Shown here piece by piece: positions 7,347-48,183 of a stretch of 64,000 nt of DNA. Under the pieces are notes generated by a model that saw only the letters and a program-made list of their open reading frames with translations, made no database searches and had not been told where the DNA came from. This DNA is from a virus. Within the stretch, counting starts at the first letter, position 1, and the number at the start of each line of letters is the position of its first letter. The DNA lies in the IMG/VR virus record IMGVR_UViG_3300048589_001082, positions 1-64,000 of that record, one strand, 5' to 3'. The position numbers and the translations under genes are program-made.

Positions 7347-7374
7347 ATTATAATCGCAACCAATCTCAACGCAA
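7347..7374 (-). promoter_or_regulatory. Promoter with direct-repeat operator (site 2) for the lysin gene
   Basis: Minus-strand TATAAT (7347-7352) with TTGCGT (7369-7374) at 16 bp. The plus-strand element TCGCAACCAATCTCAACGCA (7354-7373), a copy of the direct-repeat motif, fills the spacer and most of the -35. A bound protein there would block polymerase. Confidence 0.65.
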
Positions 7375-32080: not shown

Positions 32081-34435
32081 CTAGGCGACCTTGACGTAGC
32101 CGCCCTTGTTGGCGACAAACGACCACTGGCCGCTGTACTGCTCGATGTACCACTCCTTCTGCGCCGTCAGCTTGCCGTTGGTGTCACGGTACTGGAACGG
32201 GCCGAAGAGGCTCATCGGCCGCGAGGCCAGCACGCGGTGCTGCACCAGTTCGCGGTTGACCACCAGGATGTGGCTGTCCGGCATCTGCACCGAGGAGAAG
32301 ACCGGCAGGCCCTTGACCATCATCTGCTCGAACCCGGCCGCGCCCAGGAGCGCATCGGGGAAGCCTTCGCGGGTCAGACCCGTCCAGTTGGACAGGCGGT
32401 CGGCGTTGGTCTTGGACATGACGAAGGCGGTCGGCGCGTAGTTGTCGTTGCGCACGGCCGTGGCGGCGATGCCCATCTTCTTGACCAGGTCGCCCTCGCT
32501 GTCCGAGGCGGCCGTCCACGTGCCGCCGGCGTTGCCGCTCTCGATGGCCTTGTTGATCGCCAGGTAGAACACCGCCTGGTCGATCTTCTCGTTCACCTCA
32601 GCGATGAGCGAGGAGACCGCCTGCGACATCGGGTCCCAACCGAACTGGCTCATGCCCAGGGCGGCGGCTTCGTCGTTGACCAGCACGCTCATCCGCAGGG
32701 CGGCGACGGCCACGTCCTGGTAGGACAGGGTCGTCTTGCCGCGCTGGATGGCCCCACCCTCGCCGGTGGCCATGGCGTCGTAGGTGTAGTCCACCTTCAG
32801 CGACGTGGCGTCACCGATCGTGCCCGGCGAAGCCAGGGTGTAGATACGGCCGCCGGGGTAGTCGATGCGGTAGTCCGACCACTCGGTGTAGGTGACGTTG
32901 CCGGCCGAGTTGGTCACCGTGACCGAACCGGGGCGCAGGTAGTTGTGGGCCAGGTCTACCCAGGCCCCTTCGTCGGAGGTCACAACCTCATCGGTAACGG
33001 TCGGAGCCGCGCCCGTCTCGGCCGCGTACGCCTTGAACCACACCCGCGTCGGCGAACCGTCGATGGTGCCGAAGTCGAAGATGTTGGCCGCCACCAGTTG
33101 CGGCATGGCCTCGGCGATGACCGCGCGGGACACCGAGTACGGCAGGTTCAGGTCGGTCGTGGCCGACGCTTCCATCCAGGCGCGCCGCTCGTTGTGCTCG
33201 GCGATGAGCTGCGACCGGTACGCCTTGTCGAACGCCTTCAGCATCCGCTCGGTCAGCTCACCGGCCGGGGAAGCGGCCCGCTTCGGCTCGCGCTCCACCA
33301 GGTGGCGGATCGCCAACTCCTCGCGCACCTGCTCGGAGAACTCCAGGTACTCCGGCCGGCCGGTCTCGCGCTCGATGACCGGGCCGGTGACGCGCACGCC
33401 GCGCCCCTCGACGCGGGCGGCGGCCTCGACCTTCTCGTCCTCAATCCGCTTGGCCTCGGCCGCGGCGGCCGTCTCGCGCTTGACCGCTTCGATGACCGCG
33501 TCCAGCTTGGCCCGCTCGGCGGCGACAAACCGCTTGACCGCCTCGGCGTCGGGCAGACCGGCGACCTCGGCCGACTCGCGCACCTTCTCCACCAGCGCCG
33601 CATCGTAGGGCAGCGCGGCCGTCTCGGCGGCGATGGCGTCGGCCACGGCCCGCATCCGGGCGGCCTCTTGCAGCTTCTCGTTGGCCTCGGCCAGCTTCTC
33701 CTTCTCGGCGGCCAGCCGCTTGGCCTCGGCCTCCTGGGCCTCCTGGGCGCGCTTGGCCTCGGCCAGCGCCTTCTCGGCGTCTTCCCGGCGGCGATTCTGC
33801 TCTTGCAGGTCGGCCGCCAGCTTGGCGTCAACGACGCCATTCTTCTCGTCTTTCGGTTCCATCTCTAGCTCTCTCCCCTCTCCCTTGTCGGGTTGCGTGT
33901 GTTTGTGCTCCAGAACCGTGATCCCGGCCTCCTCGAAGGAAGGCTCAAAGACCAGGTCAAACCCGGTCAACTCCAGGCGCGTCACGGTTTCGATCTCTTT
34001 CTCGGTGTCGTACTGGCTCTCGCCGTACCCTCTGAGCGACAGTCCGGGGAAGACACCGGCCTCCATGAGGGTCAGCACGTTCCGGCCCGCGTCGGTGGGG
34101 ATAATGGCTCCCTCCACCTCCACGGCGCGGGTCGTCTCGTTGAAGGCGATGGCCTCCCACTTGACGACCGTTTCCAGAACGCGCGTCCCATACGGCGGAT
34201 GGTCGGCTTCTCCGAGGATGTTGCCCTGGCTGAGCGATCGGGTGAGCTTGGCTTGCGCCATGCGGACCGCCTCGCGGAGCACGTCGGCCGGGTACAAACG
34301 GCTATTCTGGTTGACCGTGTCGGCCACCGCTCCCACGCCGCGGATGCGGCGCGGCCCGGCGGCCGCCTCACCGGTCTGCTCCAGCAGGGCGACCTCGCCC
34401 TGTACTTCTCTGAATCGGGTGTGCTTCTTGCTCAT
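32081..34435 (-). CDS. Fused prohead protease-scaffold-major capsid protein
   Basis: 784 residues from the ATG after AGGGG. Residues 1-175 look like a prohead protease of the gp21/S80 type: NQNSRLYPADVL at 42-53, candidate catalytic His79 in GEADHPPYG and Ser133 in PGLSLRGYG. Residues 205-345 are a charged coiled coil (EKALAEAKRAQEAQEAEAKR), the scaffold or delta domain. Residues 385-784 are an HK97-type major capsid protein, with the typical late stretch QHRVLASRPMSLFGPFQYRD. The three functions are normally separate genes. An internal ATG at 33862 (residue 192), after a strong GGAGAGGGGAGAG region, may give a scaffold-capsid form without protease. An alternative start at 34468 would put the terminator stem in the coding sequence. 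Confidence 0.85.
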   Translation of the reverse strand: MSKKHTRFREVQGEVALLEQTGEAAAGPRRIRGVGAVADTVNQNSRLYPADVLREAVRMAQAKLTRSLSQGNILGEADHPPYGTRVLETVVKWEAIAFNETTRAVEVEGAIIPTDAGRNVLTLMEAGVFPGLSLRGYGESQYDTEKEIETVTRLELTGFDLVFEPSFEEAGITVLEHKHTQPDKGEGRELEMEPKDEKNGVVDAKLAADLQEQNRRREDAEKALAEAKRAQEAQEAEAKRLAAEKEKLAEANEKLQEAARMRAVADAIAAETAALPYDAALVEKVRESAEVAGLPDAEAVKRFVAAERAKLDAVIEAVKRETAAAAEAKRIEDEKVEAAARVEGRGVRVTGPVIERETGRPEYLEFSEQVREELAIRHLVEREPKRAASPAGELTERMLKAFDKAYRSQLIAEHNERRAWMEASATTDLNLPYSVSRAVIAEAMPQLVAANIFDFGTIDGSPTRVWFKAYAAETGAAPTVTDEVVTSDEGAWVDLAHNYLRPGSVTVTNSAGNVTYTEWSDYRIDYPGGRIYTLASPGTIGDATSLKVDYTYDAMATGEGGAIQRGKTTLSYQDVAVAALRMSVLVNDEAAALGMSQFGWDPMSQAVSSLIAEVNEKIDQAVFYLAINKAIESGNAGGTWTAASDSEGDLVKKMGIAATAVRNDNYAPTAFVMSKTNADRLSNWTGLTREGFPDALLGAAGFEQMMVKGLPVFSSVQMPDSHILVVNRELVQHRVLASRPMSLFGPFQYRDTNGKLTAQKEWYIEQYSGQWSFVANKGGYVKVA

Positions 34436-34449
34436 GCTGCCCCTGCCCC

Positions 34450-34488
34450 AAAACGAAAAACGGCGCACCCCCCGTAGGGAGTGCGCCG
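34450..34488 (-). terminator. Intrinsic terminator in the capsid leader (attenuator-like)
   Basis: Minus-strand RNA: CGGCGCACTCCC, loop TACG, GGGGGTGCGCCG (12-bp stem with one G-U pair), then TTTTTCGTTTT. It lies after the 34560 promoter and before the 34435 start. No gene ends here to need it, so it must be overcome or modulated for the structural genes to be read. Confidence 0.85.
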
Positions 34489-34559
34489 CGTGTCCATCGT
34501 TCCTGGCGCGTCACCGGGTATGGTGGCCCGGCCGCGTGGTATTCGTTTGTCTGACCCGG

Positions 34560-34610
34560 ATTATATGAATAGTCCAATCGCGGTCAAATACTCGTTGAGA
34601 TTGGTTGCAG
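34560..34610 (-). promoter_or_regulatory. Late promoter with direct-repeat motif (site 4)
   Basis: Minus-strand TTGACC (34582-34587) and TATAAT (34560-34565), 16-bp spacer. The direct-repeat motif CTGCAACCAATCTCAACGAG (minus, 34591-34610) ends 3 bp upstream of the -35, where an activator or a repressor could act. Start site near 34553 gives a leader of about 118 nt containing the terminator. Confidence 0.7.
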
Positions 34611-34659
34611 CCGACGGCCGCTTCCGTAGGTAGTTCTTCCCACCGCGCGGCCGACCGCG

Positions 34660-34804
34660 CCGACCTCGGCCGCGTCCCCTGCCCGGCGGCCGTCTGTCAC
34701 CGGTCTGTCCGGCTCCGCTCCGGCGCGCCCGGCGTCCTGTCACCGGTCTGACGCGCGGCCGTCCGCACCGACCTCGGCCGCGTCCCCTGCCCGGCGGCCG
34801 TCTG
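34660..34804. repeat. Duplicated 37-bp segment in non-coding DNA
   Basis: A 37-bp sequence (34660-34696) recurs exactly at 34768-34804, 108 bp apart; TGTCACCGGTCTG also occurs twice (34695-34707 and 34738-34750). They lie in the ~300-bp gap 34611-34911, which otherwise holds only the terminator of the upstream gene. A 60-codon frame here (34561-34743) is Arg/Gly-rich and is not called. Confidence 0.85.
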
Positions 34805-34854
34805 GCGGCGGTGGGCCGCGCCGGCCGTCGCCTGTCTCGAAGGGCGTCCGGGCC

Positions 34855-34882
34855 AACAAAGGGGCCGCCCGGCGGCGGCCCC
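34855..34882 (-). terminator. Terminator of gene 34912-35349
   Basis: GGGGCCGCC, loop of 4, GGCGGCCCC, then TTTGTT on the minus strand, 30 bp after the stop codon. It separates this small gene from the late promoter region. Confidence 0.7.
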
Positions 34883-34911
34883 TGCTGTGATTGGCGGCGG
34901 TAATACCCTAG

Positions 34912-35349
34912 TTAGTTGGCGCTCCGCAGCGCCTCGGCCAGCTTGCGGATTTCTTCCCGCGCCTCCGATTCCTCAGAGACCCGGATTTCATCCGCCAGCG
35001 TCGCCAGCGTCGCCACCGCGTCCGCGTCGCCGTCTTCTTCGGCGGCTTTCGCCAGCCGGGTCATCCGGCTCTTGAAAGCGGCCCGGCGGCGCGGGTCGTA
35101 GGCGGCGTACCCGGCGCGGTACTCATCAAGCAGGTCATCGACGGTCATCCCGCCGGTGTCCTTCCGTTCGGCCTCACCGATAGTCGCCCGAATCTGGGCC
35201 AACACTTCGGCGATCTGCGGGTCGGTGGCCGTTTTGGTCATCCGGCTCACCTGCGCCCGCAAGGCCGCCTGTTGCGTAGGGGGAAGCTTGTCGAAAGCCG
35301 CCGCCCGCCGCAGCATCCCAATGACAGTCTGGAATGGAGTAGTGGACAT
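34912..35349 (-). CDS. Hypothetical all-helical protein
   Basis: 145 residues, predicted to be helical throughout, with two similar helical units: LPPTQQAALRAQVSRMTKTA (about 22-41) and YDPRRRAAFKSRMTRLAKAA (about 84-103), suggesting an internal duplication. Acidic C-terminus (EESEAREEIRKLAEAL). It has its own strong promoter and terminator, so it is expressed separately from the structural operon. A regulator acting on the neighbouring late promoter is conceivable from position only; no DNA-binding motif is recognised. Confidence 0.65.
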   Translation of the reverse strand: MSTTPFQTVIGMLRRAAAFDKLPPTQQAALRAQVSRMTKTATDPQIAEVLAQIRATIGEAERKDTGGMTVDDLLDEYRAGYAAYDPRRRAAFKSRMTRLAKAAEEDGDADAVATLATLADEIRVSEESEAREEIRKLAEALRSAN

Positions 35350-35418
35350 GGGTATTACCTCCGTATTTGGTTTTTAACCGGTTGCTTTGGGGTTATCCCC
35401 GCCGCCAATCACAAAGAC

Positions 35419-35484
35419 AGTATAACATCTGCGTTATTAGATGTAAATAAGTAGAAATACTCATTTTGTTGCGATTGGTTGCGA
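35419..35484 (-). promoter_or_regulatory. Strong promoter with operator-like repeats (site 5)
   Basis: Minus-strand TTTACA (35442-35447) and TATACT (35419-35424) at 17 bp, with an extended TG. The inverted repeat ACATCT/AGATGT (35425-35430 and 35439-35444) covers the spacer and -35. The direct-repeat motif TCGCAACCAATCGCAACAAA (minus, 35465-35484) lies 17 bp upstream. Drives the 34912-35349 gene. Confidence 0.75.
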
Positions 35485-46839: not shown

Positions 46840-47526
46840 ATGGACACGCGACCCAACCCCAAATCCGTTCGCAACCGCGTCGTGGAGATGCGGCTGATCC
46901 GCGCCGGCGATCTGCTCGACCATGACGGCAACTGGCGCATCCACCCGCTGTACCAGCGCGAGGCCCTCGACGGCCGCCTGGAAACGGTCGGCATCACCGA
47001 CGTGCTGAAGGTCTACCCCTCGGCCCGCGCCGGCGGGCGGCTGGTCATCATCGACGGCCACCTGCGGAAAGCGACCGACCCGGAACTGTACTGGCCCTGC
47101 GTCATCCTCGACCTCGATGACGAGGAGGCCGATGACGAACTGGCCTTCCACGACGCCATCGGCGCGTGGGCCGAAACCAACCCCATCGCGCTCAACGCCC
47201 TGCTGGAGAAGATGCGGGTTGAAAACGAGCGGGTGGCCGCCGCCCGCGACCGCTTGCAGGAGTCCATCGCCGACCAGGTGGAGATCGCCCGCCGCGCCCT
47301 GGGCGACCCGGCGGCGGCTCCGGCCCGCGAAGGCGTCTACGGCGGCTTTGCCCTGGCCCCGTCGGTCAAGGTAACGGTAGCCATCGGCGACGACCTGGCG
47401 ACGGTCGAGCGGGCGCTGAAGGCCACCGGGCTGAAGAACCGCGCCGCCGCGCTGGGGGCGATCTGCTCCTACTACATCCACATGCACGAGAAGGGGCAGG
47501 CGGCCGCGGCCGAAGGGGAGGCGTAG
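46840..47526 (+). CDS. ParB-like nuclease domain protein
   Basis: 228 residues. The N-terminal 80 residues match the ParB-like nuclease fold: IHPLYQREALDGRLETVGIT followed by VIIDGHLR at 69-76, the DGHxR signature. The middle is an acidic and coiled region; the C-terminus (VKVTVAIGDDLATVERALKA) is a small beta-helix domain. Such proteins in phages often sit next to a methyltransferase. The ATG lies 7 bp after the -10, so the mRNA is predicted to be leaderless. First of a two-gene plus-strand operon; the only plus-strand genes in the window. Confidence 0.8.
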   Translation: MDTRPNPKSVRNRVVEMRLIRAGDLLDHDGNWRIHPLYQREALDGRLETVGITDVLKVYPSARAGGRLVIIDGHLRKATDPELYWPCVILDLDDEEADDELAFHDAIGAWAETNPIALNALLEKMRVENERVAAARDRLQESIADQVEIARRALGDPAAAPAREGVYGGFALAPSVKVTVAIGDDLATVERALKATGLKNRAAALGAICSYYIHMHEKGQAAAAEGEA

Positions 47527-47529
47527 ACG

Positions 47530-48183
47530 ATGGGCGCGAGACCCCCCAAGATGGACAACCTGACCCTGAGCCAGAAGGTCATGCTCCGGCAGACCGCCCT
47601 GGCCGCCCTGGGCGGCGAGACGCCGGTCATCTGCGAGACCCACGGCGGCCGGGGCGACGTGTGGGCCGCCGTCTACAGCCACGTCGAAGACGGCGCGGTC
47701 TTTGAGACCGACCCGGACAAGAGCGTGCTGCTGGCGATGCAGCGGCCGACCTGGGCGGTGTATGAAGCCGACGTGGAGATGGCCCTGGCGGCCGGGGCGG
47801 CGGGTCACCTGACCTTCAACTACCTCGACGTAGACCCCTACGGCTCGTCGTGGGAGACGCTGGAGGCGTTCTTCGGCTCGACCCGTCCGCGCGCCCCGCG
47901 CATGGTGGTGGTGGTCAATGACGGGCTGCGCTTCAAGGCCCAGAGCGGATCGGCCTGGCAGGTCGAACGGCTGGCGCCCTTTGTCGAGCGCTACGGCAAC
48001 CACGCCGTCCACCGCGACTACCCCACCCGCATCTGCCGCGAACTGATGACGCAGATGGCCGCGCTGGGCGGCTACACCATGCGGACGTTTGAGTCCTACG
48101 CCACCGGCCGCGAGCGGAAGATGGTCCATATGCTGGCGATACTGGAACAGGAAGCGCAACGCGAGACGGCCGCCGCGACCTAG
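47530..48183 (+). CDS. Trm1-like SAM-dependent methyltransferase
   Basis: 217 residues. A Rossmann methyltransferase core: THGGRGD at 37-43 (SAM-binding loop), acidic FETDPD at 58-63, an ADVEMAL helix, and YLDVDPYGS at 98-106, which resembles the DPYG/DPFG motif of Trm1-type tRNA guanine-N2 methyltransferases rather than the NPPY of DNA adenine enzymes. The C-terminal 70 residues are helical. Acting on tRNA, on DNA or on another target cannot be decided. It follows the ParB-like gene by 3 bp and converges with the minus-strand genes by overlapping stops. Confidence 0.7.
   Translation: MGARPPKMDNLTLSQKVMLRQTALAALGGETPVICETHGGRGDVWAAVYSHVEDGAVFETDPDKSVLLAMQRPTWAVYEADVEMALAAGAAGHLTFNYLDVDPYGSSWETLEAFFGSTRPRAPRMVVVVNDGLRFKAQSGSAWQVERLAPFVERYGNHAVHRDYPTRICRELMTQMAALGGYTMRTFESYATGRERKMVHMLAILEQEAQRETAAAT

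Follow-up and report, generated by a model that had tools for sequence, protein, structure and literature searches.

Control of gene expression by a terminator placed close to the promoter is already known as a style of phage gene control. In the lambdoid PR'-tR' arrangement with Q, the promoter is followed by a short untranslated leader, an intrinsic terminator and then the late genes, and the Q system of phage 21 makes use of a direct-repeat site between the -35 and -10 elements together with a pause element that resembles a -10 within the initially transcribed sequence (PMC6606751). The AlpA element of P. aeruginosa is also located between the -35 and -10, and the alpB terminator begins 54 nt from the start site, before the first gene (PMC7969949). 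The put RNAs of HK022 are around 70 nt in length, contain two stem-loops and are present in two copies per genome, with putL having one NANNAT element at +23 to +28 (PMC9378689). Lastly, conAn of the pLS20-type conjugation operons combines a protein and an RNA part encoded in the same operon, which has many downstream terminators (PMC8955417).

The locus described here shares features with each of these systems. The window, the whole stretch of DNA that was analysed, comprises positions 1-64000 of the IMG/VR record IMGVR_UViG_3300048589_001082, the full length of which is 100,464 bases. The record has a GC content of 69% and its minus strand holds nearly all of the genes. A DNA similarity search of a phage collection with this sequence returned no match, and to our knowledge there is no cultivated member of this phage group. 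The gene at the centre of the locus (32081-34435, minus strand) was assigned by family and homology searches and encodes a 784-residue fusion, in which an S77-type prohead protease (Peptidase_S77) is followed by a scaffold-like helical stretch and the major capsid protein region. Its ATG at 34435 is backed by the close relative described below, where an upstream in-frame GTG (34468) falls out of frame. The large terminase gene is found upstream of the fusion, and adaptor-, portal- and head-morphogenesis-like genes are found downstream.

A sequence-only reading of this DNA had proposed that a promoter and a stem-loop with a T-rich run precede the capsid gene, with no gene ending in between, and these three elements of the proposal hold. 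On the minus strand the order is promoter, hairpin, T tail and capsid ATG, and no open reading frame ends between promoter and start codon. The sigma-70-type promoter TTGACC-16-TATAAT (34560-34587) matches the consensus at 11 of 12 positions, with promoter-like sites numbering two in 10 kb against 0.4 expected. The predicted intrinsic terminator (34450-34489, minus strand) is indicated by its scan score, its fold and pair-preserving changes. It is composed of a GC-rich stem (34489-34460), GCGGCGCACTCCC-UACG-GGGGGTGCGCCGT, with 13 pairs if the outer G-U is counted and 12 if it is not, and of the tail TTTTTCGTTTT directly after it, which has 9 T in 11 positions although a CG interrupts the T run. 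A GC-rich hairpin with a T-rich tract immediately behind it is what defines an intrinsic terminator. When both strands of the full 100-kb record were scanned with a d'Aubenton-Carafa type score, this hairpin came out highest (47.6), only six hairpins exceeded a score of 10, and the maximum in the control, four Markov copies of the genome, was 13.2. The runner-up (39.8) belongs to the neighbouring gene for a 145-residue protein. Moreover, the leader folds with a z of -3.4 and no shuffled version folds equally well, such that a terminator-bearing leader is present here well beyond chance expectation. Around 25 bases separate the stem from the capsid start codon, which leaves no room for a further promoter, and hence any polymerase that comes from this promoter or from upstream has to cross the stem. 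The idea that the stem merely terminates the upstream gene was rejected, as the 145-residue gene has its own strong terminator some 370 bases earlier.

Conservation could be followed in a close relative from IMG/VR (L006/G001, 62,994 bases, about 80-81% DNA identity) and in a near-identical fragment (L002), so that the evidence on pairing and conservation comes from one informative relative. The relative keeps the -35, the -10 and the start-site region, whilst the promoter spacer has diverged. The first 54 transcribed bases are identical at 53 positions, a degree of conservation reached by about 2% of windows in the alignable genome, and the leader is therefore strongly, though not uniquely, constrained. 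The same hairpin position is again top-scoring in the relative (41.0). Within the stem, four pairs are changed and one is gained, all of them pairable, with one pair changed on both sides (C-G to U-A), and the terminator loop is replaced while the T tail is largely kept. With a single relative, this maintained pairing is suggestive rather than strong.

The leader RNA itself contains several elements. Hairpin P1, CGCGGCCGGG-CCACCATA-CCCGGTGACGCG (34507-34536, minus strand), is identical in the relative and is predicted at almost all prefix lengths. The 5' segment CAAACGAA (34542-34549, minus strand) is complementary to the T-tract of the terminator, over 7 bp here and 8 bp in the relative. This complementarity is weak by base shuffling (P about 0.09), although few genome segments match as well (0.2% of 20-base windows), and the helix is a suggestive lead only. 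A third element, GCGCC (34505-34509, minus strand), may serve as an antiterminator strand by pairing with GGCGC (34487-34483) before the 3' arm of the terminator is made, and is likewise only a lead. Folding of the growing transcript gave the same three elements in both phages, namely P1, the transient GCGCC:GGCGC pairing as the minimum free energy structure, and, after synthesis of the T-tract, the closing helix between CAAACGAA and the T-tract, which gains several kcal/mol in the relative. The GCGCC:GGCGC pairing is the sole alternative able to block the terminator, but with only 5 bp it loses to the terminator by about 15 kcal/mol as soon as that stem is able to form, and a purely local RNA switch thus looks weak. 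Ribosome-mediated attenuation through a leader peptide is unsupported, since a conserved start codon with a ribosome site is lacking: no conserved ATG was seen by eye in the leader, and the one start codon that is conserved, GTG at 34514, lacks a Shine-Dalgarno-like sequence and opens a reading frame that changes midway. Comparison of the leader with Rfam, at gathering and at relaxed thresholds, yielded nothing credible, and no further copies of note were found in this record or in the close relative. An exact pattern search of IMG/VR matched only the near-identical fragment and the close relative.

Just upstream of the capsid promoter, 4 bp from its -35, is a 16-bp box, CAACCAATCTCAACGA (34592-34607, minus strand), comprising two CAACSA half-sites 10 bp apart in the form CAACSA-N4-CAACSA. 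The box is conserved in the relative. The intergenic sequence upstream of it aligns poorly. It also occurs upstream of the promoter of the 145-residue gene, and the record contains 17 matches with up to 2 mismatches as compared with 0-8 (mean 2.4) in the Markov controls. About a dozen of the sites are intergenic or at promoters (window positions 7357, 25637, 34607, 35481, 46819, 57616, 57679 and 63611; record positions 86314, 86380, 88324 and 91984), and several are found at matching places in the relative. At other promoters the box falls within the spacer, overlaps the -35 or immediately follows the -10. Such varied positions are more in keeping with a repressor or dual regulator acting across the phage genome than with a site devoted to antitermination, and the boxes are viewed here as operator-like sites of a putative phage regulator. 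The phage encodes an OmpR/PhoB-like response regulator (record 92030-92710, minus strand; L011:10231-10911) with a Trans_reg_C match (E = 8.5e-11), a weak receiver-domain match and a match to PHROG 731. Proteins of the OmpR/PhoB family bind direct repeats, and we infer that this one is a candidate binder of the CAACSA box. One of the listed boxes is associated with the only two plus-strand genes predicted in the record (window 46840-48183), which diverge from a promoter bearing the 16-bp CAACSA box. One of this pair resembles a ParB-type N-terminus by eye, with no Pfam or PHROG match, and the segment is 85% identical in the relative.

On balance, the locus is best explained, though with modest preference, by a leader of attenuator type that precedes the capsid operon and is read through in a regulated or leaky manner. 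Host RNA polymerase would start just downstream of the promoter (34587-34560) and transcribe about 100 bases, including the highly conserved 5' hairpin. By default it is predicted to stop at the stem (34489-34460) in the host, and capsid mRNA would be made only when the stem is read through. Late in infection, a factor or a conformation of the RNA might raise read-through by way of the first ~55 bases, which are conserved. The record-best terminator, the pairing kept in the relative and the obligatory path to the gene together give the gate good support, and it is likely that the leader acts as an elongation gate. It is very probable that the phage makes capsid protein only in so far as polymerase is admitted past the predicted terminator or leaks through it. 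The proposal in the sequence-only reading that the structural operon is governed by antitermination or attenuation is well supported as regards terminator gating, its Q version failed the tests that were run, and regulation of the read-through is something we infer. Counting against the gate are the lack of a known antiterminator family in the record, the T tail with its CG interruption and the single informative relative. If the stem does terminate, the most heavily needed gene of the phage would be gated at transcript elongation, and none of the tested features of Q, NusG-like or put systems matched this gate.

Of the described systems, processive antitermination of Q or AlpA type, with a phage DNA-binding protein using the CAACSA box as its loading site at the promoter, would account for the order of promoter, terminator and gene, which is that of 21 PR'-tR' (PMC6606751) and of P. 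aeruginosa alpB (PMC7969949), the alpB terminator lying, as here, about 50-65 nt past the start site. A direct-repeat box adjoining the -35 also accords with such loading. In both known cases, however, the site is between the -35 and -10, whereas here no 6-bp direct repeat is found in that interval, the spacer of which diverges in the relative, and the box sits upstream of the -35. The same box is moreover present at promoters without a subsequent terminator. No early -10-like pause element could be recognised, for the first 60 bases contain a single NANNNT, CACCAT, at an offset of 34-35 after the -10, with nothing -10-like before about +29. Searches of the 100-kb record, which may be incomplete and in which most genes have no assigned function, gave no match to the Q families Phage_antitermQ/Antiterm (PF06530, PF03589), though a diverged or novel Q is possible, nor to a phage-encoded NusG-like (LoaP-like) protein (PF02357). 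Q-type antitermination is therefore not supported, and a Q/AlpA-type mechanism is very unlikely. A further difference from the lambdoid arrangement is that the first gene here is a capsid fusion. With HK022 put (PMC9378689) the leader shares a conserved structured RNA at the start of the transcript, ahead of a terminator, and one NANNAT element, here at about +29, but only P1 precedes the terminator and the leader is present once, where put has two stem-loops and two copies. With conAn (PMC8955417) it shares a promoter-proximal element and terminators that could filter spurious transcription, but the neighbouring protein gene is upstream here, in a separate unit. By analogy, the leader appears to work like a promoter-proximal terminator gate, without assignment to any named antitermination family.

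The same elements, a promoter, a structured RNA of ~100 nt and a terminator, could also constitute a small-RNA gene or a constitutively leaky terminator. A constant share of read-through would then supply the capsid gene, and the RNA set free, with a 5' segment able to pair with the T-tract of the same molecule, might act elsewhere. This would explain why the whole ~100 nt is strongly conserved, why the 7-8 bp closing helix is seen in both phages and is stronger by several kcal/mol in the relative, and why no antiterminator family was found. Yet base shuffling shows no significance for the match between 5' segment and T-tract, there is no Rfam small RNA match, and an unregulated strong terminator before the major structural gene would be costly, making this reading rather unlikely. 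A ~100-nt leader that represents a new type of phage regulatory RNA, whereby the 5' hairpin and 5' segment drive passage of the terminator or the released small RNA links capsid production with infection state, is a doubtful prospect. Also doubtful is a stem that does not work as a terminator but, from a position ahead of the ribosome site, helps to stabilise the 5' part of the mRNA or to guide its processing. Phage structural mRNAs often bear 5' stabilising hairpins, and about 25 nt separate the end of the stem from the start codon, as would suit such a role, but the 9 T in 11 directly after it are largely kept in the relative, and T-tailed hairpins of this sort hardly occur in the rest of the record or in the Markov controls.

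A wider comparison was made through the capsid gene. A profile search with the fusion found 56 IMG/VR loci and two contigs of bacterial genome assemblies, one of which is labelled Anaerolineales. The full-length annotated match is the 'putative phage capsid protein and protease' of Virus Rctr41k (KX853513), the same fused protease-capsid protein at 42% identity and next to the terminase, but with an extra N-terminal domain and without promoter, leader or terminator before the gene. At 51 scored loci, the close relative excluded, a terminator-like hairpin was found before the capsid gene in none, and promoter-like matches were few and weak. The distant relatives, about 50 at ~40% identity, have the capsid gene adjoining the terminase, within about 10-20 bases where this was read directly, whereas the gate lies between the two genes here. 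Similar leader stems, which the earlier reading had suggested looking for in related phages, are thus present in one close relative and absent from some 50 distant ones. The absence of the block from these distant relatives indicates that promoter, leader and terminator belong to the two-phage lineage, and that the element goes with the gene arrangement of this lineage. On comparison with loci L018 and L020-L075, many of the capsid relatives also carry an N-terminal extension of ~110 residues, which the fusion of this lineage (32081-34435) lacks. This domain was not found anywhere in the full record, and the 145-residue protein is hence not its detached copy.

The 145-residue protein had itself been suggested, either as protein or as transcript, to take part in control of the capsid leader. 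The reading frame (34912-35349, minus strand) is correct and coding (dN/dS about 0.16), and it encodes a protein predicted to be all-helical (pLDDT 87). The suggested role finds no link, as the gene forms its own transcription unit, with a promoter TTTACA-17-TATACT (35419-35447, minus strand; identified by promoter scan and also compared in the relative) and a conserved terminator (34861-34882, minus strand; score 39.8). Complementarity of its mRNA to the capsid leader is no better than that of shuffles. Searches with the protein against families, solved-structure sequences and folds gave no significant match, and no relative was recognised outside the two-phage lineage. In the spacer between the two units there is a 61-bp direct repeat (34644-34704 and 34752-34812; 92% identical, period 108), and this repeat-bearing spacer is not alignable in the close relative.

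The mRNA of the 145-residue protein has a structure of its own. An arm of its 3' UTR (34886-34908) pairs perfectly over 15 bp with the 5' bases of the transcript (35399-35413), compared with at most 12 in 4000 random segments, and also over 10 bp with the 10 bases before the start codon (35350-35359), a match reached by about 0.6% of random segments. Together these form one continuous helix of ~23 bp that joins the 3' UTR to the 5' end and the ribosome site. In the fold of the full mRNA both helices are near certain in the window and both are present in the best structure of the relative, where one A-U pair of the ribosome-site helix is replaced by G-C. Among known cases icaR of S. aureus comes closest, the 3' UTR there binding the ribosome site of the same mRNA (PMC3868564), and, by analogy, icaR-like autoregulation or protection of the mRNA ends is possible for this transcript.
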